Positions 9,784 through 36,940 of a stretch of 64,000 bases of DNA are shown piece by piece. Position 1 is the first letter of the stretch; the number at the start of each line of letters is the position of its first letter. The stretch comes from Bacillota bacterium. GTDB lineage: Bacteria; Bacillota; Clostridia; Peptostreptococcales; Anaerovoracaceae. Location: the NCBI GenBank assembly GCA_017522185.1, contig JAFWZZ010000029.1, positions 62,001-126,000 on the forward strand, in the 5' to 3' direction. The notes beneath the pieces were generated by a model. That model ran no database searches. It had not been told where the DNA came from and worked only from the letters and a program-made list of their open reading frames with translations. Both the position numbers and the translations under genes were made by a program.

Positions 9784-9808
9784 TTGATCATCAATAAATA
9801 ATGACTTT

Positions 9809-9855: not shown

Positions 9856-9920
9856 ATATGTGGAAATATTAGAGAGGGTCCTGTATAATAAAAGAAAGAT
9901 TGATACATGGAGCTGATTTT

Positions 9921-10415
9921 ATGGCAAAGAAGGATAAAACGAAAGAGATAAAAACCAATGCTGTCCGAATGGTAGAGGCAGCAGGTATTGACTATACACT
10001 TCACACCTACGATGCGCCGGAAGGCTTCCTGGATGGTGTTTCTGTGGCAGCACAGACGGGAAAGAATCAGGAACAGGTTTTTAAGACCCTGGTTACGGTG
10101 GGGCACAGCAAAGAGCACTATGTCTGCGTCATCCCTGTGGCTGAAGAACTTGACTTTAAGAAAGCTGCGAAGCATTTCGGAGAGAAAAACATCGAGATGA
10201 TTCACGCCAGGGACATTACAGCAATTACGGGCTATATCAAAGGCGGCTGCTCTCCTGTAGGCATGAAAAAACCGTTCAAAACAGCCATAGACTGGACTGC
10301 AGAGCTGCAGGATACTATTTGTGTCAGCGGGGGAAAAGTCGGCTTACAGATGGAATTGGAGCCCAATAAGCTGGCTGCATTAGTTGGAGCGGAGTTTACA
10401 GATCTAACGAAATAG
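9921..10415 (+). CDS. ybaK: Cys-tRNA(Pro)/Cys-tRNA(Cys) deacylase, YbaK type
   Basis: A trans-editing enzyme that hydrolyses mischarged aminoacyl-tRNA. It is 164 residues from the ATG at 9921, which has TGGAG eight bases upstream; an in-frame TTG at 9900 is a less likely start. The fold motifs are visible: TLHTYDAPEG near the N-terminus, GKNQEQVFKTLVTVG with the catalytic lysine, the HARDITAITGYIKGGCSPVGMKK substrate loop, and ICVSGGKVGLQMEL at the end. The GCSPVGMKK segment is characteristic of YbaK/EbsC as opposed to ProX or the INS domain. It is monocistronic, bounded by terminators on both sides. Confidence 0.9.
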   Translation: MAKKDKTKEIKTNAVRMVEAAGIDYTLHTYDAPEGFLDGVSVAAQTGKNQEQVFKTLVTVGHSKEHYVCVIPVAEELDFKKAAKHFGEKNIEMIHARDITAITGYIKGGCSPVGMKKPFKTAIDWTAELQDTICVSGGKVGLQMELEPNKLAALVGAEFTDLTK

Positions 10416-10467: not shown

Positions 10468-10776
10468 TTATATTAATAATTCTGTTATATAAACGGCGAT
10501 GCAGGATGCTAATGCTACCTTAAACAGATTGCCATCTTTGTATGCTACGATAACAGCGACAACAAATGCGGCAATTCCGGATATCAGGTTGCTGGTAGCT
10601 GTAATAATGGCCGGGAAAGCCATGACAGATAAAGTCACATAGGGAACATAATACAAAAATGAATAAATAAACGTATTCGTAATCTCACCCTTGATGAATG
10701 TCAGCGGCAGTGCTCTGATTGCGTAGAGTGTCAAAGATGCCACCAGTAAATAGATGTAAATATTATTGTCTAACAT
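10468..10776 (-). CDS. azlD: branched-chain amino acid exporter, small subunit AzlD
   Basis: A 102-residue membrane protein with about three to four helices, and the partner of AzlC. The sequence has the AzlD-like layout (LTLYAIRALPLTFI, YVPYVTLSVMAFPAII, then an alanine/valine-rich helix and AYKDGNLFKVALASCIAVYI). I choose the ATG at 10776, which has GGAGG nine bases upstream; the GTG at 10782 is too close to that site. It overlaps the 3' end of azlC by 14 bases, so the two are translationally coupled. The pair exports branched-chain amino acids or analogues; the exact substrate is not visible. Confidence 0.88.
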   Translation of the reverse strand: MLDNNIYIYLLVASLTLYAIRALPLTFIKGEITNTFIYSFLYYVPYVTLSVMAFPAIITATSNLISGIAAFVVAVIVAYKDGNLFKVALASCIAVYITELLI

Positions 10777-11503
10777 CTTCACAGGCCTCCTTGCTTAACA
10801 GACTTTCCGGCTGTACCGGTCTAATGATTGCTGCGGCTGATGCGATAATTAAAGTTAAAATGATAATCTTTGTGCCTGAAGACATTGTGTTAAGTACAGG
10901 CAGTACTGTAGAAAGTGCACTTGCCGCCATGGAAACTAACACAACGATTGCGATGGTTTTACTTTCCCTGGATGGAGGAATGACAACGGCGATAAACATG
11001 CCATAGAGAGCAACTCCAAAAGCACTGGAAAGGCTTAACGGCAGGATATTACCGACTGCAGCACCCAGCATAGTACCGATGAGCCAGGCAGGGGAGCCAA
11101 CAGACATAGCACCCAAAGGGTAAAATGGGTTTAGCTCACCTTTGACTGAAACGGAAATACCGAAGATTTCATCAGTGACAAAGTATGACATGAGCATTCT
11201 CTGCCATAACGGTGTGTTTGGATTCAGCTTCTGTGAAAGTGCGCAGGACATCAAAAAATACCGGATATTGATGACAAACATGGCACCAATCATGGCGATG
11301 TATCCGGCTTGTTCGGCGATGACTGTCATAGCAGCAAACTGACCTGCTGATGCGTGTAACATAAATGACATCAGTCCCGACTGTGCAATGGTCATGCCCA
11401 TATTTTTTGCCGCAATGCCAAGGGTAAAGGCTACGGCAAAGTATCCCATAGCAATGGGGATACCGTCTTTGATTCCCTGTAAGTAATTCTTGTTCTTGTC
11501 CAT
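10763..11503 (-). CDS. azlC: branched-chain amino acid permease, large subunit AzlC
   Basis: A 246-residue multi-pass membrane protein. Its start (GIKDGIPIAMGYFAVAFTLGIAAKNMG) and the segments SGLMSFMLHASAGQFAA and NIRYFLMSCALSQKL match the AzlC family well. About seven to eight helices are predicted. It works with AzlD as an exporter of branched-chain amino acids, known in Bacillus from azaleucine resistance. No lrp/azlB regulator is next to it. The ribosome site before the start at 11503 is weak. Confidence 0.92.
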   Translation of the reverse strand: MDKNKNYLQGIKDGIPIAMGYFAVAFTLGIAAKNMGMTIAQSGLMSFMLHASAGQFAAMTVIAEQAGYIAMIGAMFVINIRYFLMSCALSQKLNPNTPLWQRMLMSYFVTDEIFGISVSVKGELNPFYPLGAMSVGSPAWLIGTMLGAAVGNILPLSLSSAFGVALYGMFIAVVIPPSRESKTIAIVVLVSMAASALSTVLPVLNTMSSGTKIIILTLIIASAAAIIRPVQPESLLSKEACEDVRQ

Positions 11504-11539
11504 ATGAATATTCTAATATATTGTTTTCGTGAAAGCAAT

Positions 11540-11572
11540 AGAAAACCCGCCTGGCATTACGCTAAGCGGGTT
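11540..11572 (-). terminator. rho-independent terminator of the crotonase gene
   Basis: On the minus strand AACCCGC, a 15-base loop and GCGGGTT are followed by TTCTATTG. It lies 35 bases past the crotonase stop. Confidence 0.75.
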
Positions 11573-11606
11573 GTTCGTTTTGTTGACAAAAATTACAGTT
11601 ATGTAA

Positions 11607-12395
11607 TTACTTGTTCTGGAATGGTTCCTTAACCTTTTCCTTGTTCTTATCTAAGAAGAATGCCATACCGTACTTCTGGTCTTCTGTTTCGAAGCAGGAG
11701 CCGAATAATTTTTCTTCGATTACGATTGCTTCGTCCATGTCAACCTGCAGACCATCGTTGATAGCTTTCTTGGAAGCTCTTACTGCGATAGGAGCCTGCT
11801 TTGCGATACCTGCAGCCATCTTTTCTGCAGCTGGCATTAATTCTTCTAATGGATATACAGCGTTTACTAAGCCGATTCTGTAAGCTTCTGCAGCCTTGAT
11901 GTTCTTAGCAGTGTAGATTAACTGCTTTGCCATACCTGGGGAAACCAGACGAGCTAATCTCTGTGTACCGCCAAAACCTGGAGTGATGCCCAGGCCAACT
12001 TCAGGCTGACCGAATACTGCGTTTTCTGCACAGATTCTGATGTCACAGCTCATAGCGATTTCGCAGCCGCCGCCCAGTGCGAATCCGTTAACTGCAGCGA
12101 TAACAGGAATAGGGAATGTTTCCAGCTTTCTGAAAACGTCGTTACCTTTCTTACCGAAAGCTTCGCCTTCTTCCTTAGTTAAAGTGCTCATTTCACCGAT
12201 GTCAGCACCTGCAACGAAAGATTTTTCGCCAGCACCTGTCACGATCAGACATCTAACTGCTTCTAAATCAACAGCATCTAAAACTGCATCCAGTTCCTGT
12301 AAAACAGCACTGTTTAATGCGTTCAGAGCCTTAGGTCTGTTAATTGTGATATAGCCAACCTGGCCTTTTACTTCGTATAAAACATTTTCGAACAT
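11607..12395 (-). CDS. crt: enoyl-CoA hydratase / 3-hydroxybutyryl-CoA dehydratase (crotonase)
   Basis: Hydrates or dehydrates short 3-hydroxyacyl-CoA, as in butyrate formation. It is 262 residues from the ATG at 12395, which has AAAGGAAG seven bases upstream; an upstream in-frame start is not conserved. The oxyanion-hole and catalytic segments are present: VAGADIGEM, NGFALGGGCEIAMSCDIRI with a catalytic Glu, FGQPEVGLGITPGFGGTQRL with the second catalytic Glu, and the CoA-binding end. These match clostridial Crt. The usual neighbours (bcd, etfAB, hbd, thl) are absent, so the gene is isolated from any butyrate operon. The residues alone do not separate Crt from other short-chain enoyl-CoA hydratases. 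Confidence 0.88.
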   Translation of the reverse strand: MFENVLYEVKGQVGYITINRPKALNALNSAVLQELDAVLDAVDLEAVRCLIVTGAGEKSFVAGADIGEMSTLTKEEGEAFGKKGNDVFRKLETFPIPVIAAVNGFALGGGCEIAMSCDIRICAENAVFGQPEVGLGITPGFGGTQRLARLVSPGMAKQLIYTAKNIKAAEAYRIGLVNAVYPLEELMPAAEKMAAGIAKQAPIAVRASKKAINDGLQVDMDEAIVIEEKLFGSCFETEDQKYGMAFFLDKNKEKVKEPFQNK

Positions 12396-12449
12396 TTCAA
12401 TTCTTCCTTTCTTGTTGAAAAAATTATCCATTGTTAATAATATAACATT

Positions 12450-13091
12450 TTATAACTGCTTTTTCAACCCTTCCAGTGCTTTCTTTACCGGCGGAAGAGA
12501 AATAATTACGACGGTCAGGACGCCTTCTGCGGCCAGATATGTGAAGTTATAGAACAAAGACCAGGTCACGGCGTTAAATCCCTCTGGCGCATAGGCACCG
12601 AAGAAGACGATACCGGAGATTACGGCACATACATAGCGGGCGAAGAGGCCCAGGGTATATCCCTTTACCAGCCCGTTATTCTGGTGACGGCAAAGGCCGG
12701 AAAGTCCCAGTGCACCGAAGGCAAAGGGATAGTCAACCAGAAGCTGAACCGGGTGGATGATATACGGACCGAAAATCAAATTCAGAAGACCTACACACAT
12801 GCCTGCCATCACGCCGCGTCTTGTACCAAGGAAATAGCCGCAAAGTGCAATCGGCAGCATGGAAAACACGGTAACGGTACCGCCGTAAGGCATTTCAAAC
12901 AGCTTTAACATGCCCAGTCCGGTGGCAAGTGCCACGAGAAGGGCAGAGAGTGTAACCGCTTTCGTGTCAGCTCTCTGATTCTTTTCTTCTTTGCTTGGGA
13001 TTAAAATAAACAGAAACATGATGGCGATGACGCCGATGGTCACAATCTGACCGGAAGTGGATTCGAAGAATCCCTGTAAGTTTTCAAACAT
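12450..13091 (-). CDS. thiT: thiamine ECF transporter substrate-binding subunit ThiT
   Basis: A 213-residue membrane S-component that binds thiamine and works with a shared ECF AAT module encoded elsewhere. After an N-terminal helix (about residues 15-32) come six further hydrophobic helices. The loop between them has LFEMPYGGTVTVFSMLPI, and later GPYIIHPVQLLVDYPFAFG, FARYVCAVISGIVFFGAYAPEG and WSLFYNFTYLAAE, which are the thiamine-contact regions of ThiT/YuaJ. A TPP riboswitch lies 80 bases upstream on the same strand, in agreement. The extra N-terminal helix before the S-component core is longer than in the Lactococcus protein. Confidence 0.93.
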   Translation of the reverse strand: MFENLQGFFESTSGQIVTIGVIAIMFLFILIPSKEEKNQRADTKAVTLSALLVALATGLGMLKLFEMPYGGTVTVFSMLPIALCGYFLGTRRGVMAGMCVGLLNLIFGPYIIHPVQLLVDYPFAFGALGLSGLCRHQNNGLVKGYTLGLFARYVCAVISGIVFFGAYAPEGFNAVTWSLFYNFTYLAAEGVLTVVIISLPPVKKALEGLKKQL

Positions 13092-24939: not shown

Positions 24940-26223
24940 TGGAGTGCGATGAAAAAGCGAGACACGAATTTTGAAAAAATGTGCTAGCATATGCATAGAA
25001 AAGGAGAAAAAAATATGCCTAGCAACAATTCAAAATATACAGATGAATTCAGAGAACAAATTGCATTACGTATCCTGAATACCGGTCAGCCAGCAACAAG
25101 AATGGCGGAAGAAATGGGAATAGACACAAATACAGTGTGCCGTTGGGTAAGAGATTACAGAAGAAAGCATAGTATGCCGTCTTATGCTGAAGAAAAAGGA
25201 ATTAGAACATTACCACCAAAGGATAGTATGGAATTGAAACAGCGAATTAAAGAATTTGAAAGACAGCTAAAGGAAAAAGAAAAGGAGAAAGAGCGGTTGA
25301 TAAAACAACTGGCAGATGAAAGGGAGAAGATCGAAATTCTAAAAAAACCTGCACATCTTCATGCAACCACAAGAATGAAATTTGAGTCCATCCTCGAATT
25401 CAGCACCCGGTTCGAGGTGAAGAAGATGTGCGAAGTTCTGGGTGTGAACGGAAGGCGCAGAGTGTTGAAATCAGTGAATATAGAGTACGCCGTTTAATGA
25501 AGGAAAATGGATTTTATCCTGAACTTGCAGTAAAACTCAAGCCTGTCCGGAATGGAAAAAGTGACGGAAGATACTGTGAAAACAAGGTGAAACAGGAGTT
25601 TAAGACGGACAGCTGTAATACCTTATGGGCGGGAGACATCACATATATTAAGACCAGTGTGGGATGGGTGTATCTTGCAGTGGTCATGGATCTGTACAAC
25701 AGGGAAATCATAGGATATTCCCTTGGTAAGAAAATAGATACGGAACTTGTAAAAGCAGCATTGGTAAATGCGATAGGAAGGAGCGGCGTGAAAGATGATT
25801 TAGTATTTCACAGTGACAGAGGCTGCCAGTATTCCAGTAAGGGATACCAGAATCTGCTGGAAGAGAAGGGTATAACGGGAAGTATGAGCAGACATGGATG
25901 TCCGTATGATAATGCCTGCGTTGAGAGCTTTTTTACCTCACTAAAGAAGGAGAAAATATACAGAAAAAGATACGAGACCATGGAAGAAGTGAAAAAAGAT
26001 ATTTTCTGGTATATCGAAATGTTTTATAATAGAAAGAAACGACATTCCGCGTTGGAATATATGACACCAGTAGAATACCGTCTTAAATACGATGAAAAAA
26101 GAATAGCTTAAAGTCAACGTTTGTGTATGCATATGGAAGCGCGGCCATGTCTCAAAAACTCGCTGCACTCCATATGTGGATAGCACTACATTTCGCACCC
26201 CAAAATCAACAATTCGCACTCCA
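24940..26223 (+). mobile_element. decayed IS3-family insertion element
   Basis: An orfA/orfB-type transposase region lies between ends that both read TGGAGTGCGA pointing inward (24940-24949 and 26214-26223). The right side has a second candidate end at 26172 (GCACTCCA), and the block from there inward (TGGAGTGC, GAGACA, CATATGCATA) matches the left end best. So the true right end may be 26172 with another repeat unit outside it. A subterminal pair CATATGCATA/TATGCATATG lies at 24988-24997 and 26126-26135. I see no target duplication. A third copy of the end-type repeat lies at 35760. Confidence 0.8.
25015..26111 (+). pseudogene. IS3-family transposase, orfA fused to disrupted orfB
   Basis: The first part (from the ATG at 25015, AAGGAG upstream) is an OrfA with a helix-turn-helix (MAEEMGIDTNTVCRWVRDY) and a leucine/lysine coiled coil. 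In IS3 elements OrfA ends near an A-run and OrfB follows by -1 frameshift. Here the run of seven A at 25341-25347 leads straight into the OrfB start (MKFESI, then KKMCEVLGV) in the same frame; the old OrfA end (LHIFMQPQE, stop) is visible in the +1 frame. About 60 OrfB residues after LGV appear deleted and the frame shifts near 25440. The rest (RRLMKENGF onward) holds the DDE domain: GDITYIKT, FHSDRGCQYSS and DNACVESFF. The enzyme is probably dead. Confidence 0.75.
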
Positions 26224-26227
26224 GGTG

Positions 26228-26256
26228 TTGCATGCATAACATAATTATGGTAAGAT
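26228..26256 (+). promoter_or_regulatory. predicted promoter of the SipW/TasA-like cluster
   Basis: TTGCAT, a 17-base spacer and TAAGAT begin five bases outside the right repeat of the IS element and 61 bases before the first signal peptidase start. Its closeness to the element suggests transcription starts just inside the cluster. Confidence 0.5.
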
Positions 26257-26288
26257 TTTGAAAAATTGTAGACAATGAGAGGTAATTC

Positions 26289-26927
26289 ATGAAAACAAAA
26301 AGAGATGAGAAGACAACAGTAGCACATAAGACTCTGACCGTTATTGGTGCGATTCTGTGTGCTATTTTAATTCCGATTTTAGCAATTAATGTGACTTTGA
26401 TTGTGAAGAGTTACACAAATGCGGAAGAAGTTCCAAGCATTGGAGGAGTTTTTCCTCTAATTGTGCTGACAGATTCCATGCAGCCGGAGATTGACGGCGG
26501 CGATTTAATTATCTGTCACACCGTAGAACCAAAGGATGTGAAAGATGGCGATATCATTGCATTCTTCGATCCTGCAGGGAATGGTACAAGTATTGTAACC
26601 CACCGTGTTGTGGATGTAACTAAGGAAGATGGCGACATCGCATTTAAGACAAAAGGCGATGCCAATAATGCGGAAGACCGTATGTTGGTAGGCGCTGATG
26701 ATTTGGTAGGGGTTTACCAGGGCCGTATCAAAGGAGCAGGCAACATTGCAATGTTCATGCAGTCCACAACGGGTTTGATTATCTGCGTTGTACTGCCGAT
26801 AATTTTATTGATTGGCTACGACGTGATTCGTCGCCGCAGCTACGAAAAGAAAAGCGCTGTTGATAACGCAGCTCTACTTGCAGAACTGGAAGCGCTGAGA
26901 GCAGAAAAAGCGCAGAAGGATAAATAG
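26289..26927 (+). CDS. sipW: SipW-type signal peptidase I (first copy)
   Basis: A membrane-bound peptidase that removes signal peptides from exported proteins, 212 residues. One helix lies near residues 15-40 and a second at about 161-180. The catalytic serine is S63 in VLTDSMQPEIDGGD and the second catalytic residue is H105 in VTHRVVDV. The Ser/His pair in place of Ser/Lys marks the ER/SipW class, which in Bacillus processes TasA and TapA. The KTKGDANNAED block and the second helix also fit SipW. The C-terminal 30 residues are charged and helical. It is the first gene of the cluster, and the next gene encodes a probable substrate. Confidence 0.88.
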   Translation: MKTKRDEKTTVAHKTLTVIGAILCAILIPILAINVTLIVKSYTNAEEVPSIGGVFPLIVLTDSMQPEIDGGDLIICHTVEPKDVKDGDIIAFFDPAGNGTSIVTHRVVDVTKEDGDIAFKTKGDANNAEDRMLVGADDLVGVYQGRIKGAGNIAMFMQSTTGLIICVVLPIILLIGYDVIRRRSYEKKSAVDNAALLAELEALRAEKAQKDK

Positions 26928-26988
26928 CAAGTAGACGGCGATCAAAATATTACATTCGATTCTAGGTATTCTTTCTTCGGAAGCCACG

Positions 26989-27016
26989 TCCGGGGATGAT
27001 ATATAGAAACCCCGGA
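26989..27016 (+). other. hairpin upstream of the first TasA-like gene
   Basis: TCCGGGG, a 14-base loop and CCCCGGA form a 7-bp GC-rich stem with no T-run. It sits in the leader between sipW and the first fibre-like gene. It might stabilise the mRNA of an abundant product or mark a processing point. Confidence 0.45.
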
Positions 27017-27066
27017 AGAGGGGGAGAATGAAAGAAAAATTAAGACTAATCGAAAGGAGTTCTATC

Positions 27067-27756
27067 ATGAAAAAGAATAAGATGATGAGATTAGCATCAT
27101 GCTTATTAGTAGCAGTACTGTTAACTACAAGCATGATCAGTGGTACATTCGCGAAGTATACTACAACTGTATCCAGCGAAGACGCTGCAAGAGTTGCATA
27201 CTGGGGATTCCAGGCAAGCAATAGCATGGATATTAAGGCGTTATTCACTGACAAATATACCAATGTAGACTCTGTGGACGATAAAGATGTTATCGCTCCA
27301 GGCACATCCGGTTCTAAGACATTTGCTTTTGCATGGGATGAAGAAGTAAGTGCTTATGGTGCCCAAGTTGCGGTTACAGGTCCAGAAGTTGCATATAACT
27401 TTACTGTTGCTGTAGAAGACACATGTGACCCACTGATCAAGGATAACAAAAATATCCAGTGGAAACTGGACGACGGTGCGTGGGGTACTTGGGATCAGTT
27501 AGTAGCATCTATTAAGGCTCTGTCTGGTGAAGAAGATGGTTCTAAAGATTATGACCCAAACACATTACCAGTAGCATTTACAAAAAATGATGATACACAC
27601 ACAATTGCTTGGCAGTGGAACTTTGGAGGTACTGAAAATTACACAGTAGATGGCAAGCCTCTGACTCAGGATGAGTATGATACTTACATGGGTAATGCAG
27701 CAGAATTAGACGACTGCTCTATTAAGATTACAATCACTGCAACTCAGGTTGACTAA
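27067..27756 (+). CDS. TasA/camelysin-like exported protein 1
   Basis: A 229-residue exported protein. The N-terminus is a SipW-type signal segment: basic MKKNKMMR, a hydrophobic stretch, then SGTFAKYTTTVSSED. The A-K-Y triplet at residues 29-31 follows the expected cut site. The mature part is beta-rich and acidic, with an early APGTSGSKTFAFAWDEE strand pair. The C-terminus has W-Q-W, then DEYDTYMGNAAELDD, and ends ITATQVD. I assign it to the TasA/camelysin (CalY) type by signal motif and fold pattern, not by overall identity. AAAGGAG precedes the ATG at 27067. It follows sipW by 140 bases and has its own terminator, which suggests a separately tuned, abundant product. Confidence 0.7.
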   Translation: MKKNKMMRLASCLLVAVLLTTSMISGTFAKYTTTVSSEDAARVAYWGFQASNSMDIKALFTDKYTNVDSVDDKDVIAPGTSGSKTFAFAWDEEVSAYGAQVAVTGPEVAYNFTVAVEDTCDPLIKDNKNIQWKLDDGAWGTWDQLVASIKALSGEEDGSKDYDPNTLPVAFTKNDDTHTIAWQWNFGGTENYTVDGKPLTQDEYDTYMGNAAELDDCSIKITITATQVD

Positions 27757-27797
27757 TTACAGCAAATCGTTTTTAGCCAAAACATAATTGATTTTAC

Positions 27798-27842
27798 ATA
27801 TCCCTCGGGCTCATCGTGGCTGGGCCCGAGTGGATATTTTTC
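27798..27842 (+). terminator. terminator inside the SipW/TasA-like cluster
   Basis: ATATCCCTCGGGC, a 13-base loop and GCCCGAGTGGATAT with one mismatch are followed by TTTTTCC. It splits the cluster into an upstream pair (sipW copy 1 plus TasA-like 1) and a downstream five-gene block. Confidence 0.85.
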
Positions 27843-27930
27843 CTATTTATCTATTCTGTATTTTTCAAAGGGTGAAAGTGCTTGTCTTTTGAAAAGGACA
27901 GAACCAAAAGGTCTATTGGAGGAACTGCGA

Positions 27931-28839
27931 ATGAAGAACGAAGGAACAACAGAGAAAAAATGGATATGGCTATGGGCGCTGGTTCTTATGGTAGGCGTTG
28001 CAGCAACTGTAATCTGTTTGGTAGACCGTTATTCCGATTACATGATGGACGATTCCGGGGCATTACCATTGGTACCGCAAGCTGATGCAGATGCTGGATT
28101 TGATGATGAGGATTCTGGCTCTGGTGATGCAGACGCTGTCTTTGTGAGAATCCCAAAGTCCGGGTTTGAGATTAGCGATGGAGGAAATGTATGGACAGCA
28201 TCTACAGATGTCGAAATTTTCAATGTTTCTTATGAAGATAATCAGTGTAACGTTACTGTAAATGGAGGAAATGGTGAGAAGGTCATTGCACCGGGAACTA
28301 CCAATGCTTTTGTGTTTAAAGTAAAGAATACCGGGGAAACAGCGTTGGACTATGAGGTAGATTTGGAAGCCTTCTTTACGCCGAAAGATACTATCATTCC
28401 AATTCAGGCAAAGATTTCCCGTTATGATGGGGAATGGGTTGCTGGTGACACTTCCAATTTTATTGATATTACTAATGTGGAAGACATTCATGACAAAGGA
28501 ACATTGGGTGCAGGCAGATATACGTATTACGCACTGGAATGGGTATGGCCGTTTGAACAGGGTCTGGATGAACTTGATACTTCTTTGGGAAATGCAAGTT
28601 TAAGAGATGACATTACATTTACCCTTCGCGTGAAGACGACGGCATATATGAGCACAGACCCTAATGCTGATGCTGGCATTCGGGCACCATCTACAGGAGA
28701 TTCTGCTAAGACATTGACATGGATTCTGCTGGCAGGTTGTGCAATTGCAGCTTTCATCCTGTTACTGTTCTGGAGAAGAAAAGAGGACGATGAAAAGGCT
28801 TCTGAAATGGAGGCAGAAAAGCTTGAACAAGAAGAATAA
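27931..28839 (+). CDS. membrane-anchored TasA-like protein with a degenerate LPxTG-like tail
   Basis: A 302-residue exported protein with an N-terminal membrane helix (about residues 9-30) and a C-terminal one. After the first helix comes an acidic spacer rich in Asp, Ser and Gly, then a beta-rich domain with IAPGTTNAFVFKVKNTGETAL. The motif W-V-W-P-F followed by DELDTSLGNAS and DDITFTLRV recalls the end of the first TasA-like protein. The C-terminus reads RAPSTGDSAK, a hydrophobic helix and RRKED, which is the layout of a sortase signal with APSTG in place of LPxTG. No sortase gene is in the window. GGAGGA lies before the ATG at 27931. It may be the anchor or assembly base for the small proteins. 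Confidence 0.65.
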   Translation: MKNEGTTEKKWIWLWALVLMVGVAATVICLVDRYSDYMMDDSGALPLVPQADADAGFDDEDSGSGDADAVFVRIPKSGFEISDGGNVWTASTDVEIFNVSYEDNQCNVTVNGGNGEKVIAPGTTNAFVFKVKNTGETALDYEVDLEAFFTPKDTIIPIQAKISRYDGEWVAGDTSNFIDITNVEDIHDKGTLGAGRYTYYALEWVWPFEQGLDELDTSLGNASLRDDITFTLRVKTTAYMSTDPNADAGIRAPSTGDSAKTLTWILLAGCAIAAFILLLFWRRKEDDEKASEMEAEKLEQEE

Positions 28840-29374
28840 AGGGAAAGAGACTATACGAGTACTGCTGTTAATTCTTTGTGGTTTCATGATTGGATTGCAG
28901 GTATACATGGCAAATGCAAACGCTCTTGTTGGCGAGAAACTGCCAATGCCTTTTGGCTATGGCGCAGCGGTGGTACTTTCAGGAAGCATGGAGCCGGAGC
29001 TATCCAAAGGTGATCTGATTTTTGTAAAGGAAGATACTTTTGATGTAGGTGATGTGGTTGTGTACCAGGACGTGAATTATTTGGTAGTTCACAGAGTCAT
29101 CTCCATCAACGAAGATACTGTGGTTACAAAAGGGGATGCCAATAACACGGATGATGGGGAAATTCCGATGAGCGTCGTAAAAGGCAAAGTTACCTTTTGG
29201 ATACCAGCTTTAGGCTATTTTGTTAATTTCATGAAAACTGGCGTTGGCACGGCGCTGACGTTGATTGCAGCTTTTCTTTTGATTGAGATTCCAAGAAGAA
29301 GAGAAGCGAAGAAAGATGAGCAAGAGAGAGAAAAGATTATCGCAGAGATTGAACGTTTGCGTAAGGAAATATAG
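28790..29374 (+). CDS. sipW: SipW-type signal peptidase I (second copy)
   Basis: A second ER/SipW-class signal peptidase of 194 residues. The catalytic serine is S66 in VVLSGSMEPELSKGD and the histidine is H101 in VVHRVISI. The block VVTKGDANNTDDGEI follows. One helix lies near residues 22-42 and one at about 150-167, with a charged coiled-coil-like C-terminus. It is diverged from the first copy. The start is uncertain: the ATG at 28790 lies within the previous gene and has AGAGGA very close; a TTG at 28823 has GGAGG nine bases upstream. Either way it overlaps the anchor gene, so the two are translationally coupled. Two small TasA-like genes follow. Confidence 0.85.
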   Translation: MKRLLKWRQKSLNKKNKGKETIRVLLLILCGFMIGLQVYMANANALVGEKLPMPFGYGAAVVLSGSMEPELSKGDLIFVKEDTFDVGDVVVYQDVNYLVVHRVISINEDTVVTKGDANNTDDGEIPMSVVKGKVTFWIPALGYFVNFMKTGVGTALTLIAAFLLIEIPRRREAKKDEQEREKIIAEIERLRKEI

Positions 29375-29395
29375 GAGAGGAAGGAGGACCATGCG

Positions 29396-29914
29396 ATGGG
29401 AAAAGCAAGACATAAGAAAACAACTGGTGTGAACATTCCGATGTGCGTCGCATGTGTTTTGTTCTGCCTGACTTTGATTTCCATTCATATGACAAGCGGC
29501 TTTTATGCGAAGTATACAGTAGGAGCTGAAGGTAACGATGGTGCCAGAGTAGCAATCATGGCTACAGATGCGGAAATCAACTTGGAAGATTTTTGTCTTG
29601 CGCCAGGCGAAGAAAAGGAGTTTACTGTTACACTAACAAATCAAGAGAATGAACGCGTTTGTGAAGTGGCACAGTCTTACACTTTGAAGGTTGAGAATTT
29701 AACGAATAATCTCGACTTTGCATATGAATATTATCTGATGGATACAGGAACAATGACAATAGTCGATGAAGCTACAGGAATTTTTGAAGCGGGAACTGCG
29801 GAGACTGCAACTTATAAGGTAAAGGTACTTTGGCCTGATGTTCCGCAGCCGGCAAATCATGCTTTTGAGATGGATGCTTTGAGAATTGTTGTTCATGCAG
29901 AGCAGATTGATTAA
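29396..29914 (+). CDS. TasA/camelysin-like exported protein 2
   Basis: A 172-residue exported protein. After a basic N-terminus and hydrophobic helix the sequence reads TSGFYAKYTVGAEGNDGARVAI, the same A-K-Y arrangement as in protein 1. The mature domain has an APGEEKEFTVTLTNQ strand pair, a short helix and an end ADALRIV-like segment, actually MDALRIVVHAEQID, close to the ITATQVD end of protein 1. It has no C-terminal anchor. The ATG at 29396 has GGAGG eight bases upstream; an ATG at 29391 is in another frame. It lies 21 bases after the second signal peptidase and is a likely substrate of it. Confidence 0.65.
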   Translation: MGKARHKKTTGVNIPMCVACVLFCLTLISIHMTSGFYAKYTVGAEGNDGARVAIMATDAEINLEDFCLAPGEEKEFTVTLTNQENERVCEVAQSYTLKVENLTNNLDFAYEYYLMDTGTMTIVDEATGIFEAGTAETATYKVKVLWPDVPQPANHAFEMDALRIVVHAEQID

Positions 29915-29926
29915 GGAGGGCATTTT

Positions 29927-30664
29927 ATGGATAAGAAGAAAAAAAGATTTTCTAGATCTTGTCAAGCTGGTGCGCTTCTTTTGATCTTTGTGTTGCTACT
30001 GTCGTTAAGTGTTGGGCTTCATGCAAAATATATAGATACGGAAGATAAGGATGTTGCAGCCATTGCCAAGAACTTCTATTTCGAAAGCGATTTGTTAACG
30101 GCATCTACAGGTGCAATGCCACAATATACTTTAGAAGCGGGCGTAGATGATATTACTTTTGTTCTGCGAAATTATCCCGATGAATTGCGAGAATCAGAAG
30201 TAGATATCCACTATGAAGTTACTTTAGAAAAAGAGGGCGTAACCAAGGAGAAAAAGACAGGCGAACTGAAAATAAATCAGAAAGTAGAAAATATTACGTT
30301 TTCTGATTTGGAACCAGGCGTTTATGAGGTAAAGGCGAAGGCGACAAAACCGTATGTATCGTTATTACATGGAAGATTCACGCTGATTGGCATAGACGAA
30401 GAGCTATATTATAGCGTTAGCGATGCGCCGGGAAGCCCGAACATAAAAGTTACCATTACAACAACTGACTATGCCGGAACGGTAAAGATTAGTTGGCCTG
30501 ATGGTGTGCTACCAGACAATACAGAAGAGATGCTAGAGACTGCAAAGGGAAAAAATTGCGAAATTACTGTAAAGGCACAGTCTGAATATGTTCTACAATT
30601 CTTCAAAGAAATGCCAAGCAAGGATTATACAACAAAGATTACAGTTACGAAAGATATCGTCTAG
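29927..30664 (+). CDS. TasA/camelysin-like exported protein 3
   Basis: A 245-residue exported protein. The N-terminus is very basic (MDKKKKRFSR), followed by a hydrophobic helix and VGLHAKYIDTEDKD, again with A-K-Y. The mature part differs from the other two: it has repeated two-strand units (VDIHYEVTLEKEGV, GVYEVKAKATK) that look like immunoglobulin-like beta-sandwiches, and ends TKITVTKDIV. Similarity to proteins 1 and 2 is limited to the signal segment and general beta content. It starts 12 bases after protein 2 and ends 20 bases before the giant gene, so it is within the same transcript. Confidence 0.6.
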   Translation: MDKKKKRFSRSCQAGALLLIFVLLLSLSVGLHAKYIDTEDKDVAAIAKNFYFESDLLTASTGAMPQYTLEAGVDDITFVLRNYPDELRESEVDIHYEVTLEKEGVTKEKKTGELKINQKVENITFSDLEPGVYEVKAKATKPYVSLLHGRFTLIGIDEELYYSVSDAPGSPNIKVTITTTDYAGTVKISWPDGVLPDNTEEMLETAKGKNCEITVKAQSEYVLQFFKEMPSKDYTTKITVTKDIV

Positions 30665-30684
30665 AAAGAAAGGAGGAATCAGCG

Positions 30685-33600
30685 ATGGAAAAACAAAGAT
30701 ACAAGAAGATTTTAGCTCTATTCCTGGCTCTTTCGATGGTTCTTTCTACGAGTGGAATTCCAGGAGTCTATGGAGATACATCTAGCCAGGATCCATTGAC
30801 GCCAAGGGATGGCGGTGTTGTTTTTTCTGCGGGGATGTATACTGATGCGGACCGTACAAATTTAGATACGATGTTAACCAAGGAAGGTGCAACCCTAGAG
30901 GATTGGGTGTACCAAAGTAGCAGTGCCAGCTCTGAAGATAGATATTTAGGGATTACGCTGGCTGGATTGGATATGTACAATACCCAATACAGAGTTGTTG
31001 TGGAAATGGATCCTATTTTATATGTAAATATGAATAGTGAGCCGACGTTGACTGACGCAACGGTTAGCTATGAAAAGAATGCAGACTTTACGGTAAGTAC
31101 AACGGGCCTATATCCTGTACATAAATACAGCTTTTCCAATTTGACATATTTGATTGATCCGGGCGTATCCGGATTGACAATTGGTTTGCCAATTCGTTTC
31201 GACCAGCGTTTATGGAATAAGCAGAATGGCGGTTTGTTAGGTAATGGCGAAAGGCCATTATTGCGTGTATATTTGGAAGGGAAACAGGGTACAGGAGAGT
31301 TTGATAAAGTTGAAGATTATGATGTAGCTTTACAGAATGCAACAGTTAAAGGTAGTCTGAAATTCAGTCCGACTTTCAATTCATATGTGAATGGTAACCA
31401 AACCTCAATCATGGGTGTAGATGACAAAGTGCGAGGGGTATTTGCGCAGTTTGGAGCAAATAATGCTGCTAATGGACATTATGCGAAGGATGTTCAAGTT
31501 AAAATCAAACTGCCGACCTGCGTAATAAATGAAACGAAGTATGATTTGGTATACGAAGGTTTTAATTTCGTAACATCTAATGGCGAGCCTGCAGTACAGA
31601 CAACCGTGGAAACGGACAGTTCCGGTAATGTAGTTTATACTTTTTCAGGTTCAGAAATATATTTTACCGGTAGCAGCATGTTCCAAATCTATTTTGCAGC
31701 ACCGGAAGCATTGAAAAATGTAGATGGTACCCATGATTTTAAGGGGAGCATTGCAGTCACAGAAGATGGAGTGACAGTTTGTTCTGCAATGCAGATTGCA
31801 ATCAGGGTAGAAGTCGGGGGTGCTCCGATTTTGGTAGCAGGCTCCGCGTCTGGACTTGCGAATACTGTTGATACCGACACTGTGCAATTCTTGGGGACTC
31901 TTTCCATGAGAAATGATTCTGCAAAGAATGACAGCGGTCCTCTTATGGTGAAACTAGCTTTTGACACAAACAACACCAACGCAGTAGGGATATCTACCAT
32001 CAATATCATGAAGGCGACCGCCGTTACGAGTATTAAGGTAGACTATACATTGGTTGATGAAAATGGTGAGCCGGCGTTTCTTGACGAGGCGACTGGAGAA
32101 AATAAAATCCATTCAGTAGTGATTACTGCAGCGAGAGGCTCATATCGAATTTTTTCAAGAGGTGACTTACCAGCTGAACACCAAAAGTACTACTTTAAAA
32201 CAGTTTCTTATGTATTAGATAATTTGCCTGCAAATACCTATGCATATAACAAAAGTGCGGTGCGTTCTCCTTCTAGCGGAGGTACCTTCTGGGGATATGT
32301 GAAGACGACAGTAGTTCCATCTATAAAACCAAAGCATACTATAGAAGTTTACCGTGTTGGGGAAGAAAGTCCAGCAATAACAGGGTCTACAGTAACAGAC
32401 ATCAATAATGGTACATCATCATCTTATGGTTTAACGTCTGCGACTGTTTCTAAAACTTATGTGCAGGCAGGGGATTCTGTGACAATTGGGGGAACCATTG
32501 ACATGGCAACTTACCCTTACTCCAGCAATAACTGCTTGGATGATATTCGTATCGGACTAATCCTCCCGGAAGGCGTGACACCAAATGCTGCCGGAATCAA
32601 AGCGACCGGCACAGGAGGCACATTGGCAGCTAAATCTGTGCAATTACGATCTGACATTAACGTAGGCGTAAATAAGAATTACTACGTGATCGAATTTGCA
32701 TCAGATTATAAAATCGGTCTTTGGAATGAAAAACTGAAGCCACTACCGGGTGGCGCTACATTGAAAGTGCAAATTCAATTAAATAGTGAAAAAACCGTAT
32801 CGAGTCAGACAATCTTGCTAAGGGAGTGTATGTTTGTTGCAGGTTATCAGCGTGCTAATGCAGCAGGGGGCTCTTATAGTGAGTATGCTGTTGCTGACAT
32901 CTATGACTTAAACGGAAATGGTAAAACTACTGACAAAATTGGTAAATTTAGAACGAGTGTAACTGCATCAGTTACTTTTGATGCTGTACCTGCAGAATTA
33001 GCAATTACAGATGAACTGATAAATGCAAAGGATGAGAGCGGTCAGAATATGACCACAGAAACTTTTGCGGACGTTCTGGATTATAACCTTAGAATTGCTT
33101 GTACAGAAGGCGGAACGGCTTCTGACTTCTACTATATCATTCCGATTCCGAAGACAACCATGACGATGGAAACGGATTTTGTTCAGAAATGTGATGTAGA
33201 TTTGTTCCTAAAGGATAAGCCAACCTTTACAACAACAGACGGGACGCCATTAAAACTGGTTTACACAACTACGCCAGTGAAAAATTACGCAGAAGCTCTA
33301 GGTGTTACAGATTGGTCAGAGACACTTCCAGATGGTAAAACATGGGATGATGTAACGTTGATCAAAGTTGTTGCAAGTGATGCAAATACGGTCATTGCAA
33401 ATGGTTCAGTTACAAACGTATCTGTTCCCCTGGGATTTTCCAAAGACTTAGAACTGGATTATATCCATATGGCAGGATATCAGATTCAGTGGAGCAGTAG
33501 AGGTTATTACTGTTATGAGGTTGGTCACAACAATAATAGTGGTATCAAATCTACTGACGGGGTGCTCATGACACTGACCTATTCAGCAAAGGACCCAATC

Positions 33601-35250
33601 CGCTTTACGTTAACTGCTGCAAAGGGTGGAACACCAACTGGTGCTGATGCCAGTGCAACTGCTTCTTTCTATTTACATGAATTTTATTTGGCCCAGACGT
33701 ATTCCGTAAGAGAGATCACGCCATATAATGTAAATCTAATGAATCAGGAGTATGACTTTACGAAGGCGAATAGCGCGGAGGCGAATACGAATTTCCGTAT
33801 TAAGGTTTCTGTAAAGAAGAGAGCTTCTGAAACAGCATCGACACCAATTGCATTACAGAAGAATAATGATATCATCGGGTCTTTAGCTGGGAATTCTGCA
33901 CCAGAATTTACATTTTCTATTGAAAATGCGGATGCGTTAAGTGATATTGTTACAGATCGAAAAGTTACACTTACCTTAATAGGAAGCAACGGTATTATTA
34001 TTCCGGTTGAGATTACAATCAAGAGAGAATTGGCAACTGCTGAGCCTACCAAATCAGCGATTGTACAAGGCGAAATTTACGCACCATTTGATGAAGGTAC
34101 AAATACGACAGTGAGTAGAGACTCTGCATTTACTGCCCAGTTCGTAACGGAATATATCCCAGCCAACTATAAGGATCGTATTATTCACTTTGAGAAAGCA
34201 CCAATTGCAGGAACTAAGATTACACTGGTAGACTATACAAAGCCTGCTGAATTGGGATTTTACCATTATACACTTAATGGTTCAGAGAAAGATATTGAGC
34301 TAATAAACTTTACCAAAATGGGAAGCACCCAAAAGTATAAGGACCCGTCTATAACGGACATTGTAACTGAGCGTTTGCTATTCGTTGTCGCTTACCCGAA
34401 AGAGGGTGAGTCTCTGATGAAGAATAAAATGACGTTGACCAAGGTGATCCGAACAGGAACGGACTCTTTGGAACCATCTACATTGACATTCGAAACATTA
34501 AATGAGAGAGCATTTACAATGAATGCTTCAAAAAATAATGTATTGGTTGGGAAAAGTTTTTCTGTGGATTATACTTCCCAATGTAGCGTATCTGATTCAA
34601 GATATGACGGACGGACAATGTCTTTGGTTATTAAGCCGAAGGATGGAACTAAATTCCCATCAGACGCTAAAATCATGGCTAATGGTGTTGGATACTCTTT
34701 AACTTCTCAAGGTATATTTTTGTTACCATTGCGAGCTGCGCAAATGGGTGATGGTAGTATCACATTATCCTATCAAACAAGAGCTGAGACACCGTCTGTA
34801 TTAGAAATCTCTTTATGGGCTTCAGCAACTGCTAATGGATTGAAGCCACTCATGGGAGATCAAGTTCTACAGGCAACAGAAGAAGTTCAGGTTTCTCCGT
34901 TGACAAAGCCTTCTTTCAAGGTTACAAATATCACAAAGAGGCTCTTAAAGGAAGAAGACCTACAACGTATTTTTACGGTAGAGTTTGATAAACGCCAGGC
35001 GGAAAAAGTTACCGTTGAATTGCAAGAAAAAATTTCTGCTGACTATGTAACACAAACCACAGCAATTGAAGCTGTCAATGGCAAGACAGAGGCCGATGAA
35101 GGACAGGGGGTTTTCGAAGTCACTGGAAACAAGGCGGACTTTGAACTCAATGATAGAATGCGAGAAGGTACCTATAGATTCCTGTTTAAGGTTTATAGCG
35201 AAGATACAATGAAAGAAATTCCATATAACTTCATTATCTTGAGGCAATAA
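30685..35250 (+). CDS. giant secreted protein of unknown function (1521 residues)
   Basis: The largest gene of the cluster. Residues 1-30 form an ordinary Sec signal peptide (basic start, hydrophobic core, short polar end), without the A-K-Y motif. The rest is beta-rich, with many Thr, Ser, Val, Asn and Gly, few cysteines and no membrane helix. No LPxTG, S-layer homology, choline-binding or dockerin segment is visible at the C-terminus, which ends YNFIILRQ. I see no strict tandem repeat, though strand-rich units of roughly 100-150 residues seem to follow each other. It could be a large adhesin or a fibre tip protein held by the smaller proteins; this is inference from position. AGGAGG precedes the start and a strong terminator follows. 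Base composition is more AT-rich than the flanking housekeeping genes. Confidence 0.7.
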   Translation: MEKQRYKKILALFLALSMVLSTSGIPGVYGDTSSQDPLTPRDGGVVFSAGMYTDADRTNLDTMLTKEGATLEDWVYQSSSASSEDRYLGITLAGLDMYNTQYRVVVEMDPILYVNMNSEPTLTDATVSYEKNADFTVSTTGLYPVHKYSFSNLTYLIDPGVSGLTIGLPIRFDQRLWNKQNGGLLGNGERPLLRVYLEGKQGTGEFDKVEDYDVALQNATVKGSLKFSPTFNSYVNGNQTSIMGVDDKVRGVFAQFGANNAANGHYAKDVQVKIKLPTCVINETKYDLVYEGFNFVTSNGEPAVQTTVETDSSGNVVYTFSGSEIYFTGSSMFQIYFAAPEALKNVDGTHDFKGSIAVTEDGVTVCSAMQIAIRVEVGGAPILVAGSASGLANTVDTDTVQFLGTLSMRNDSAKNDSGPLMVKLAFDTNNTNAVGISTINIMKATAVTSIKVDYTLVDENGEPAFLDEATGENKIHSVVITAARGSYRIFSRGDLPAEHQKYYFKTVSYVLDNLPANTYAYNKSAVRSPSSGGTFWGYVKTTVVPSIKPKHTIEVYRVGEESPAITGSTVTDINNGTSSSYGLTSATVSKTYVQAGDSVTIGGTIDMATYPYSSNNCLDDIRIGLILPEGVTPNAAGIKATGTGGTLAAKSVQLRSDINVGVNKNYYVIEFASDYKIGLWNEKLKPLPGGATLKVQIQLNSEKTVSSQTILLRECMFVAGYQRANAAGGSYSEYAVADIYDLNGNGKTTDKIGKFRTSVTASVTFDAVPAELAITDELINAKDESGQNMTTETFADVLDYNLRIACTEGGTASDFYYIIPIPKTTMTMETDFVQKCDVDLFLKDKPTFTTTDGTPLKLVYTTTPVKNYAEALGVTDWSETLPDGKTWDDVTLIKVVASDANTVIANGSVTNVSVPLGFSKDLELDYIHMAGYQIQWSSRGYYCYEVGHNNNSGIKSTDGVLMTLTYSAKDPIRFTLTAAKGGTPTGADASATASFYLHEFYLAQTYSVREITPYNVNLMNQEYDFTKANSAEANTNFRIKVSVKKRASETASTPIALQKNNDIIGSLAGNSAPEFTFSIENADALSDIVTDRKVTLTLIGSNGIIIPVEITIKRELATAEPTKSAIVQGEIYAPFDEGTNTTVSRDSAFTAQFVTEYIPANYKDRIIHFEKAPIAGTKITLVDYTKPAELGFYHYTLNGSEKDIELINFTKMGSTQKYKDPSITDIVTERLLFVVAYPKEGESLMKNKMTLTKVIRTGTDSLEPSTLTFETLNERAFTMNASKNNVLVGKSFSVDYTSQCSVSDSRYDGRTMSLVIKPKDGTKFPSDAKIMANGVGYSLTSQGIFLLPLRAAQMGDGSITLSYQTRAETPSVLEISLWASATANGLKPLMGDQVLQATEEVQVSPLTKPSFKVTNITKRLLKEEDLQRIFTVEFDKRQAEKVTVELQEKISADYVTQTTAIEAVNGKTEADEGQGVFEVTGNKADFELNDRMREGTYRFLFKVYSEDTMKEIPYNFIILRQ

Positions 35251-35329
35251 AAAAGGGAACTTTAACTTTTTCGGTGGTTGACTACTAAATGGTGGTTTAC
35301 CGTTAGTGGTGGTCATAGAGAAAGAGCAG

Positions 35330-35372
35330 AACAGGAATAGTAACGTTATTTTCGATACTATTCCTGTTTTTT
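35330..35372 (+). terminator. terminator of the SipW/TasA-like cluster
   Basis: AACAGGAATAGTA, a 13-base loop and TACTATTCCTGTT form a perfect 13-bp stem followed by TTTT. It ends the five-gene block 79 bases past the giant gene. Confidence 0.88.
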
Positions 35373-35373
35373 A

Positions 35374-35759
35374 ATGGGATAAAACATCAACTATGAGCGA
35401 TTAGAATTTAATGGATGAGGTGTCATTTAAGGAATACAGGATGTGTTTTTTTCTTTATCTTTTCAGCAAAAGCATTTTAGATTATGGAAGTGGCATGAAG
35501 AAATGTATGATTTAAAGTTTATTTGTTCTGTTGAGCGGGGAAAAGAATATGAAAGTAATTTTTTGTATTTTGGAGTTGCAGAGTATGTGATAAAAAATCT
35601 CGATACAGTTCTTTACATAGTTGAAAAAGATTATATGAATTCGTTCTATTCTCAAAAAAACAACAGAGTTTATTAACATGTTTTAAACTCAGGTTGGAGA
35701 CTAGTATTAAATGGTCTAATAATGATTCTATTGTAGCAAATTCTTGTTATCAGTTAAGG
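35374..35759. other. AT-rich gap without a convincing gene
   Basis: This stretch has no clear gene. A 77-codon frame at 35443-35676 (+) has no ribosome site and no recognisable content; it may be a remnant or chance. The whole segment is AT-rich and looks like debris between the cluster terminator and the repeat at 35760. Confidence 0.5.
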
Positions 35760-35823
35760 TGGAGTGCGGTGAAAAGCGAGACGCGGATTTTGGAGTGCGG
35801 CGAAAATGTGAGATACGAAAATG
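35760..35823 (+). repeat. solo copy of the IS-end repeat
   Basis: The sequence begins TGGAGTGCGGTGAAAAGCGA and continues GACGCGGATTTTGGAGTGCG, with a second unit at 35791. The left end of the IS at 24940 reads TGGAGTGCGATGAAAAAGCG and then AGACACGAATTTTGAAAAAA. The two align over about 50 bases, apart from a nine-base stretch (GAGTGCGGC) absent from the IS copy. No transposase is attached. It may be a remnant of a second element or a small repeat family that the IS uses as a target. Confidence 0.75.
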
Positions 35824-35881
35824 GAATGTTTTATAACCTCAATTCCTGACAAAAAACGTACATCTATCCAAACATGAACCA

Positions 35882-35911
35882 AGGGAGTTCCCTCACGGTG
35901 TGGAACTCCCT
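35882..35911 (-). other. hairpin downstream of the Cys-rich gene
   Basis: AGGGAGTTCC, a 10-base loop and GGAACTCCCT form a perfect 10-bp stem 18 bases past the stop of the minus-strand gene. The following minus-strand bases are not T-rich, so it may stop or protect the transcript only weakly. Confidence 0.5.
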
Positions 35912-35929
35912 ATTAAAATGGCAGAATAT

Positions 35930-36940
35930 TTATCTCTTCGGTTGTGGTCTGTGAGGCGGCTTGTGAGATGGTTCTTCACATGGCTCACAGTTGTCATCAT
36001 CGCAGTTATCATGGGGTTCGATGTGATGTGGTGTATCGCAGCTTGTTGCATCGCATCCTCCAATTCGCTGCGGGAACAGGCTAGGGAAGGTTGTGCAGAC
36101 AGCATTTCTTTGCAGGGGAGCATCTGCATAGCCTGTGGTTAAAACACAAAGCTGAACCGGTACCACGATTTTCTTCTCGCAGGTCAGGCAGATTGCCACA
36201 ATCAGGTTTCCAGAAATGATACCATTACAGTCTACGTTCAGGTCACGGCCACAGTTGTTAGTTGCCAGTCTGGCTTCGCATGCTGAATTGGAGAATTCAG
36301 TGAAGCGTGGAAGAAAGGCAGTGTCAATGGTAGATGGCATACAGATTTCAAAGAAATTGGTCAGCACCATCGGCTGATCCGGGGTTGCCAGATTCACACT
36401 GGTGCATACAGTGAATACTGTCTCATGGTTGCAGGCATCGCACACCAGTAAATCCAGTTCGATGATCACATTGCCTGAAATGGACACGTTATGTGTCCCA
36501 AAGACTGGAGTCCCTTTGCAGTTTTCGTCACAATCTGTGGTGTCAGCATACATGATTCGTTCTGAATAAGTTCCGTCTGCACCAACGACTTTTAAGTAAT
36601 GACCTTTGGCATCGGTTAAAAAAGATGCACCAGAAATGCTCGTATCGGACTTCAGTGTCAGATTGCATGGGTCGTCAATGTTGGATGGATTGAATGCTTT
36701 CTTGCATCGGATATCGATGACTCTTTTGATACGGCTGCCCTGAGGCAGGCAAGGGGAAAACGCCTGGTCGTTAAATGTTTTCATGCCCTGCAGATTGAAT
36801 TTCACGGCATCAAATACCTGCTGTACATAGATAGGTGCCGTCATGACGCAGTCCAGATTACCGTCAAAGGTGCACAGGCATGTGCCGCTGCAGCAGTTTT
36901 CATATAGGTTCGAGGCAGCGCCATTGCTAAAGCAGCTCAT
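35930..36940 (-). CDS. Cys-rich protein, possibly spore-surface associated
   Basis: A 336-residue protein with about 30 cysteines and no signal peptide or membrane helix. The N-terminus has clustered cysteines (ENCCSGTCLCTFDGNLDC), followed by APIYVQQVFDAVKFNLQGMK and SRIKRVIDIRCKKAFNPSN. The C-terminal tail is a His, Asp and Pro-rich low-complexity stretch (HIEPHDNCDDDNCEPCEEP). I recall close relatives annotated only as hypothetical proteins in spore-forming Clostridia. A role in the spore coat or exosporium fits the cysteine-rich, leaderless character, but this is not proven. An AAGGAGG site precedes the start. It is monocistronic. Confidence 0.6.
   Translation of the reverse strand: MSCFSNGAASNLYENCCSGTCLCTFDGNLDCVMTAPIYVQQVFDAVKFNLQGMKTFNDQAFSPCLPQGSRIKRVIDIRCKKAFNPSNIDDPCNLTLKSDTSISGASFLTDAKGHYLKVVGADGTYSERIMYADTTDCDENCKGTPVFGTHNVSISGNVIIELDLLVCDACNHETVFTVCTSVNLATPDQPMVLTNFFEICMPSTIDTAFLPRFTEFSNSACEARLATNNCGRDLNVDCNGIISGNLIVAICLTCEKKIVVPVQLCVLTTGYADAPLQRNAVCTTFPSLFPQRIGGCDATSCDTPHHIEPHDNCDDDNCEPCEEPSHKPPHRPQPKR

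Follow-up and report, generated by a model that had tools for sequence, protein, structure and literature searches.

What does a cluster of seven genes make, when it joins two SipW-type signal peptidases to three small exported proteins, a protein held in the membrane at both ends and a secreted giant? The cluster lies in a window of 64,000 nucleotides from a Bacillota bacterium of the family Anaerovoracaceae (assembly GCA_017522185.1, contig JAFWZZ010000029.1, positions 62,001 to 126,000 of the forward strand; genome of 2.12 Mb in 35 contigs), and positions below are those of the window unless a locus is named. An earlier note, made from the letters of the window alone, read the cluster as a surface-fibre or matrix system of the SipW/TasA type and called the arrangement one that it did not know. 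We are nearly certain that it is a real, recurring and so far undescribed operon, in which a conserved gene order, the paralogy of three of the small proteins (A, D and B), two old and separate SipW lineages and conserved RNA structures round A come together; we also favour, with some reserve, the reading that it serves to build a protein fibre on the cell surface, with a giant as partner and two dedicated SipW-type peptidases. Three features go beyond the earlier account: the leader and hairpin RNAs round A, the cytosolic tails of the peptidases, and the existence of two types of giant, each with a companion gene of its own. The parts of the operon are as follows.

26289–26927, plus strand: S1, the first SipW-type signal peptidase (Ser63/His105), with the cytosolic helix LLAELEALRAEK
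26967–27034, plus strand: leader RNA of A, in a short form, with GCCACG at 26983–26988
27067–27756, plus strand: A, a small exported protein and the proposed main fibre subunit, with a signal ending GTFA-KY (presumed cut at the hyphen)
27804–27830, plus strand: terminator-like hairpin 3' of A, with the 7-nt loop UCGUGGC (CGTGGC at 27815–27820)
27931–28839, plus strand: D, a membrane-anchored paralogue of A with two transmembrane helices; APSTGD is encoded at 28684–28701
28790–29374, plus strand: S2, the second SipW-type signal peptidase (Ser66/His101), with the cytosolic helix IIAEIERLRKEI
29396–29914, plus strand: B, a small AKY protein remotely paralogous to A and D
29927–30664, plus strand: C, a small AKY protein that accompanies type I giants
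30685–35250, plus strand: G, an exported giant of 1521 residues with a type I C-terminus ending IPYNFIILRQ

The starts of A (27067), D (27931) and S2 (28790) are the likely ones read off the sequence, the last overlapping the end of D. The seven open reading frames (ORFs), all on the plus strand within 26289–35250, have the order and coordinates that the earlier note had given, and its description of their products held at the level of residues: counted on the translations, the Ser/His pairs of both peptidases fall where it had placed them, the signals of the three small proteins end in AKY (GTFAKY, GFYAKY and GLHAKY), the protein with two membrane helices carries an APSTGD-helix-RRK tail, and the giant has the length claimed and, judged by eye, a Sec-like signal.

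The arrangement is not unique, so that the refutation by a unique gene order, which the earlier note had allowed for, fails. A collection of named genomes (84,980 species) was scanned for relatives of A, and the 80 best of the 204 detected were retained; the loci were thereby selected by similarity of A, and their genes were labelled with hidden Markov models grown from five loci, in three rounds, on these same loci, one of which (L064) is apparently, from its identical length of 129,422, a contig of the class genome G778. Most of the 80 loci come from genomes assembled out of gut metagenomes, those of ruminants included, and belong to Oscillospiraceae, Lachnospiraceae and further Clostridia; the others include Erysipelotrichaceae, a few Bacilli, a Tenericutes genome, another labelled Eggerthellaceae, and a named isolate, Blautia glucerasea MSK.21.93 (L049). 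This isolate has S1-A-D-S2-B-C together with a giant that is cut off at the end of the stretch examined, and its loop sequences depart from the usual ones (GCCACA and AGTGGC). Where contigs leave room, S1 lies upstream of A in 61 of 62 loci, D follows A in 71 of 76, S2 was found in 66 of 70, B in 60 of 67 and C in 23 of 67, and the run S1-A-D-S2-B stands in order in 40 of 51; a same-strand ORF of at least 700 residues, related or not, starts no more than 5.5 kb after A in 47 of 57. A gene order unique to this genome is therefore rejected, and no earlier description of the operon was found in the literature searched, subscription papers and preprints lying mostly outside it. Among 391 genomes of the class, tblastn with A gave matches in 12, its own included; of 11 stretches examined, L034–L037 carry S1-A-D-S2-B-(C)-G, with C missing from L037, L038 carries three A genes without a giant, L039–L043 are smaller variants and the contig of L044 is short. 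With a profile of 51 A sequences, matches were obtained in 17 of the 391 (14 of 318 of good quality), above 130 bits in six, again including its own, with some of the others marginal. Two or three A genes occur in L038, L078, L083 and L106. The two A-type proteins of L038 at 8018–9961 and 10623–12479 exceed 600 residues, and the former, the one of the two that was scanned, carries a GDSL/SGNH hydrolase domain, as if it were an enzyme-bearing fibre subunit.

The small proteins are for the most part related to one another. With signals and mature N-termini removed, A aligns with D at E 3.6e-25, A with B at 9e-12 and B with D at 4.8e-10, and the mature part of B aligns weakly with that of C (1.8e-5); four mature-only control comparisons with SipW gave no alignment. 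A and D have (I/V)APGT and W-x-W...D-x-x-D in common, and a Q-x-D/N C-terminus closes 72 of 89 A and 44 of 70 B proteins. D resembles a domain of the A kind that is anchored in the membrane by both its ends and lacks the mature N-terminus of A. That N-terminus (34–48, outside the locus-finding residues) has a mean commonest-residue frequency of 0.67 in A, with 0.34–0.51 beyond it except for APGT at 1.00, and in B the corresponding values are 0.60 versus 0.34 further on.

Both peptidases belong to the class that the earlier note had named for the endoplasmic reticulum (ER): S1 scores 100.6 bits and S2 90.4 bits on TIGR02228, the model of archaeal/ER-type signal peptidases (cut-off 51.85), and they score 97.5 and 80.6 bits on the Bacillus SipW equivalog NF046067, for which more than 190 are needed. 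Four SipW-type peptidases of the genome exceed the cut-off and a fifth match falls below it; two of the four are in this cluster and one each in two other clusters, C33 and C31. In a tree of 77 rows, which excludes long branches and four Bacilli/Tenericutes loci, the 28 S1 sequences form a single clade (support 100/99), and the 25 S2 sequences form another (99/89) together with one further SipW, probably that of the smaller variant L167, which takes the same place in a quick tree; when the four loci are included, in the quick tree, support is weaker and their S2 split off. The separate clades indicate that the S1/S2 pair is old and has been inherited together, with no recent duplication. The cytosolic tails are likewise distinctive, LLxELExL occurring in 55 of 75 S1 and IIxEIxRLK in 44 of 73 S2 (an expression that also matches 51 S1 tails), and neither in any of 34 other SipWs; a heptad score of at least 0.6, reached by 35 of 75 S1, 46 of 73 S2 and 5 of 34 others, is less clear-cut than the motif count. 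Perhaps S1 and S2 are paired by these helices. Two SipWs also occur together elsewhere: L195, L196, L197, L200, L201 and L204 form a different sort of SipW cluster from Clostridia, in several cases with two SipWs, which contains many AWF-signal proteins with a WLEG...C motif and has, next to the SipWs, two large proteins of about 500 and 600 residues, and in L198 and L199, of another family, two adjacent SipW genes lie near canonical-looking SipW substrates.

The giant G has no hydrophobic C-terminus. In 197 genomes of the family tblastn with G found nothing but G itself, and among 393 of the order it added two weak matches. The view of it as an orphan was given up because giants in the same position are related to it, that of L071 over 153–1518 and that of L089 over 1114–1519; a C-terminal giant profile did not spread beyond these three. 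Complete giants with 1000 or more residues number 37 (a further 8, truncated, being left out): 14 of type I, marked by Y-x-F-I-I-E and including G, 20 of type II, with WLNGNS, and 3 others. C is present in all 14 type I loci and absent from 17 of the 20 type II loci. A small signal-bearing gene, E (175–214 residues, starting –76 to +22 nt from the giant's end), is present in 19 of 20 type II loci and in none of the 14 of type I, one of which (L072) leaves only 270 nt for it; the E protein of L037 gave a sub-cut-off match to the BsaA model (E-value 4.8e-5). Listeria-Bacteroides repeats were seen in two of four other giants scanned. Its size, export and divergence suggest that the giant may be an adhesin. 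Downstream of it, outside the operon, the minus strand encodes a Cys-rich protein of 336 residues (35930–36940).

The least expected part of the operon is the pair of RNA structures round A. A terminator-like hairpin lies in the A-D gap of 42 of 77 loci, in the similarly long S1-A gap of 13 of 73, and elsewhere hardly at all (D-S2 0/49, S2-B 1/61, B-C 1/29). Counted over 82 loci (L035, L038, L057 and L064 left out), GCCACG occurs in the leader of 59 and CGTGGC in the gap after A of 59, versus 4.0 and 3.4 in letter shuffles, with both hexamers in 55 loci and neither in 19; among 78 representatives 52 have both, 19 neither and 7 one alone (Fisher p 1.7e-11, a value that ignores shared descent). 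Within 26001–36000 of the window each hexamer occurs once (26983 and 27815), flanking A. At least four of the six bases of CGTGGC are unpaired in the best local fold of 54 loci out of 59, and the hairpin stem keeps 83.6% standard pairs, versus 56.4% (maximum 61.2%) with arms re-dealt among loci, through 52 different 5' arms in 59. On the leader side, where structure was read from single-sequence folds, the z values of four long leaders lie between –4.3 and –5.4, and GCCACG stays unpaired in the centroid folds of these leaders, the hexamer being partly paired in three of the four minimum-energy folds; the short leader of the window folds weakly (z –1.7). RNAalifold on a MAFFT alignment of leaders did not recover the leader helix because its 3' arm was misaligned, and the 8–9 of 9 pairs formed by this helix (P1) in 43 of 43 leaders are weak evidence, since shuffles reach 8 or 9 in 373 of 960. 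With at most two mismatches the leader pattern was found once in the genome itself and in three of six genomes searched. Rfam gave no match to leader or hairpin: the window had a single chance-level match (E 0.28), and in eight related loci, searched at the gathering threshold, the sole match was a cobalamin riboswitch lying elsewhere in L059.

The GCCACG loop of the leader and the CGUGGC loop of the hairpin could pair. The hexamers hardly vary, so that covariation cannot speak for such a contact, and pairing beyond the hexamer was dropped as unsupported, the seventh base being uncompensated. The same two facts would suit inverted DNA sites of a regulator or recombinase placed round A, with no RNA loop pair, which we consider possible but doubtful: CGTGGC sits in a hairpin loop whose stem pairing is kept through those 52 different arms, and GCCACG in the unpaired strand of the four centroid folds. 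The native promoter of the operon may have been displaced in this genome by an insertion element whose end lies about 150 nt upstream of S1.

24983–26140, plus strand: insertion element, which we take from its ORF layout to be IS3-like, with overlapping transposase ORFs (24991–25497 and 25428–26111) and bounded by imperfect 20-nt inverted repeats (24983–25002 and 26121–26140)

These parts can be assembled into a working model. S1 and S2 would cut the AKY signals, which offer Ala at P1 and an aromatic residue at P2' (PMC10269814), a context poorly cut by E. coli LepB, and the two may act as a pair held through their cytosolic helices. The new N-terminus of A could then be the donor strand that links A to A; such joining is suggested by the conserved mature N-terminus, by a pilin-like model of B described below and by analogy with TasA, which assembles by donor strand (PMC9674648). 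D, an A-like domain without that N-terminus and with two membrane helices, may be the base of the fibre, and B, which keeps the N-terminus, may start or cap it, the part that TapA is believed to play for TasA. C would be the partner of G, either C or E would couple the giant, and G may be an adhesin or cross-linker borne on the fibre. Leader and hairpin would raise A above the other products, perhaps through loop-to-loop pairing, the hairpin giving an excess of A as in the C. perfringens transcript, where a terminator with read-through is predicted after bsaA and where sipW-bsaA filaments form without srtB (PMC7395162). In its fullest form this would be a new class of Gram-positive fibre, with a helix-paired machine of two SipWs freeing A, B and C onto a D base, swappable giant adhesins of two types with the adaptors C or E, and a GCCACG-CGUGGC loop-loop contact that clamps the A transcript and sets subunit ratios; we offer that whole picture tentatively and think it unlikely that every part of it holds.

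Several observations weigh against a SipW-type fibre. Fibre, cleavage and adhesion are predictions from the genes. Of the SipW/TasA reading in the earlier note, the two peptidases, the dedicated-looking substrates and the surface system stand, whereas the expected family resemblance was not found: A, B and C had no match at E<=1 to PF12389 (TasA/camelysin), TIGR04088 (SipW signal) or TIGR04090 (BsaA), and no curated family was matched above its cut-off by these three or by G. This silence is informative: of four other SipW-linked proteins encoded in the same genome, three exceed the cut-off of TIGR04088 (and three match PF12389 weakly, below its cut-off). Only B showed a relation by profile-to-profile comparison, its full profile scoring 95.6% against 12 canonical SipW substrates (E 1.1e-8, 150 columns, partly via the signal) and its mature part alone 58% (E 1e-4); in the controls B reached 12% against giant N-termini and the canonical substrates reached 78% against the same N-termini through the signal alone, so that the link is suggestive only. 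The AlphaFold2 model of A (predicted local distance difference test score, pLDDT, 86.2; predicted template modelling score, pTM, 0.76) had no match in the PDB at E<=0.001 with Foldseek, nor had that of B (pLDDT 87.4, pTM 0.64), and TasA was not among the 50 matches listed for either. In favour of a fibre, 19 of the 50 listed for B are chaperone-usher pilus entries (best E 1.6e-3, template modelling scores below 0.5), counted by entry title with the chains of multi-chain entries undistinguished; subunits of such pili are incomplete immunoglobulin-like folds completed by a donor strand. Searching PDB sequences with the A and D profiles gave nothing usable, with one weak match for D (E 0.036). 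The pattern used to find loci contained GT[FY]AKY[TVA][TS], so the AKY of the collected loci is not independent evidence. C was not found in 44 of 67 loci with room, its mature part gave no alignment with that of A, and its mature N-terminus is no more conserved than the rest (0.48 versus 0.46). An ORF of at least 700 residues was likewise not found after A in 10 of 57 loci with room.

Alternatively, A, B, C and D could be small envelope proteins or chaperones that carry and orient the giant without forming a polymer. The close matching of giant types to C or E, the membrane anchoring of D and the want of a significant fold match for A all suit such a display complex; but the leader and hairpin single out A, as expected for a major subunit, some loci have two or three A genes, and in 10 of 57 no long ORF comes after A, so that we give it a small though real chance. 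We find it harder to believe that this is an ordinary sipW-bsaA/tasA operon diverged past the profile models, its second peptidase having no special role. The alignment of B with canonical substrates speaks for that, as does the terminator after the first substrate gene, which resembles the one of C. perfringens (PMC7395162), yet proteins that do match TIGR04088, TIGR04090 and PF12389 exist in the same genome while A, B and C score nothing on them, and S2, present in nearly all loci with room, forms its own clade.

Least credible of all, and in our view very improbable, is a sortase-type pilus or wall-anchored system in which one of the genome's three sortases would use APSTGD to link D to the wall. 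D does pass the LPXTG anchor model TIGR01167 (18.9 bits, cut-off 15.9), falling below that of Pfam Gram_pos_anchor PF00746 (12.3 versus 20), and 40 of 72 D proteins have PxTG; a further 8 have the TG-acid motif alone and 24, at least two of them cut by a contig end, have neither. In three of six D proteins scanned a ribosomal-L15-like domain (PF00828), presumably cytosolic, follows the second helix (L046:10782–12032, L119:10727–11875 and L050:1415–2740). Wall sorting of D is therefore not general. No sortase was found in the seven-gene cluster, two of the three being at C23 and one at C19, and no sorting-like motif was found in the last 60 residues of the 37 complete giants, nor by eye in A, B or C. 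The C23 locus (L010:4884–14356) is a pilus cluster with its two sortases, LPxTG proteins, a protein of 1513 residues and a further signal peptidase.

What is known of SipW-type fibres comes mostly from Bacillus and C. perfringens, and each case compared here has one peptidase. If the fibre reading is right, the operon would add a version with two peptidases, an anchored paralogue and a swappable giant, mostly in Clostridia of animal guts; it would suggest, in testable form, how strict anaerobes make surface fibres with no help from sortase and fasten them to the cell, and setting subunit ratios by complementary loops on either side of the gene for the main subunit would be unusual. The genome itself provides a comparison in its C33 (L011) and C31 (L012) clusters, which likewise combine SipW with small exported proteins. 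C33 (L011:3576–9787) encodes small canonical SipW substrates, a protein of 382 residues whose tail reads VETGD-helix-RRK, a giant of 1118 residues and a SipW. Both clusters differ from the operon in that their substrates match TIGR04088/TIGR04090 and that each has one SipW, without the tail motifs; the C33 giant, made of Listeria-Bacteroides repeats, is also unlike G.

Further afield, sipW-bsaABCRSD of C. perfringens resembles the operon in having SipW beside a small substrate, which forms filaments there, a terminator after it and further small secreted proteins; in the portion of that study available (PMC7395162) it has one SipW and a two-component system within the operon, and neither an anchored paralogue nor a giant is mentioned. 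Its BsaA has an NCBI model of its own, which A does not match. The likeness to tapA-sipW-tasA of B. subtilis lies in small SipW-cut proteins with a main subunit, an initiator and an N-terminal strand, roles that we assign here from the genes, and the difference in its single SipW and, as far as the accessible text extends, in having no anchored paralogue or giant (PMC9674648). Similar features are found in sipW-tasA/capP/calY of Bacillus cereus, with SipW-cut paralogous subunits, a helper protein and sortase-independent filaments, again matched here at the level of genes; it too has one SipW, and the part of its description available (PMC13082335) mentions neither a giant nor a membrane-anchored paralogue such as D.

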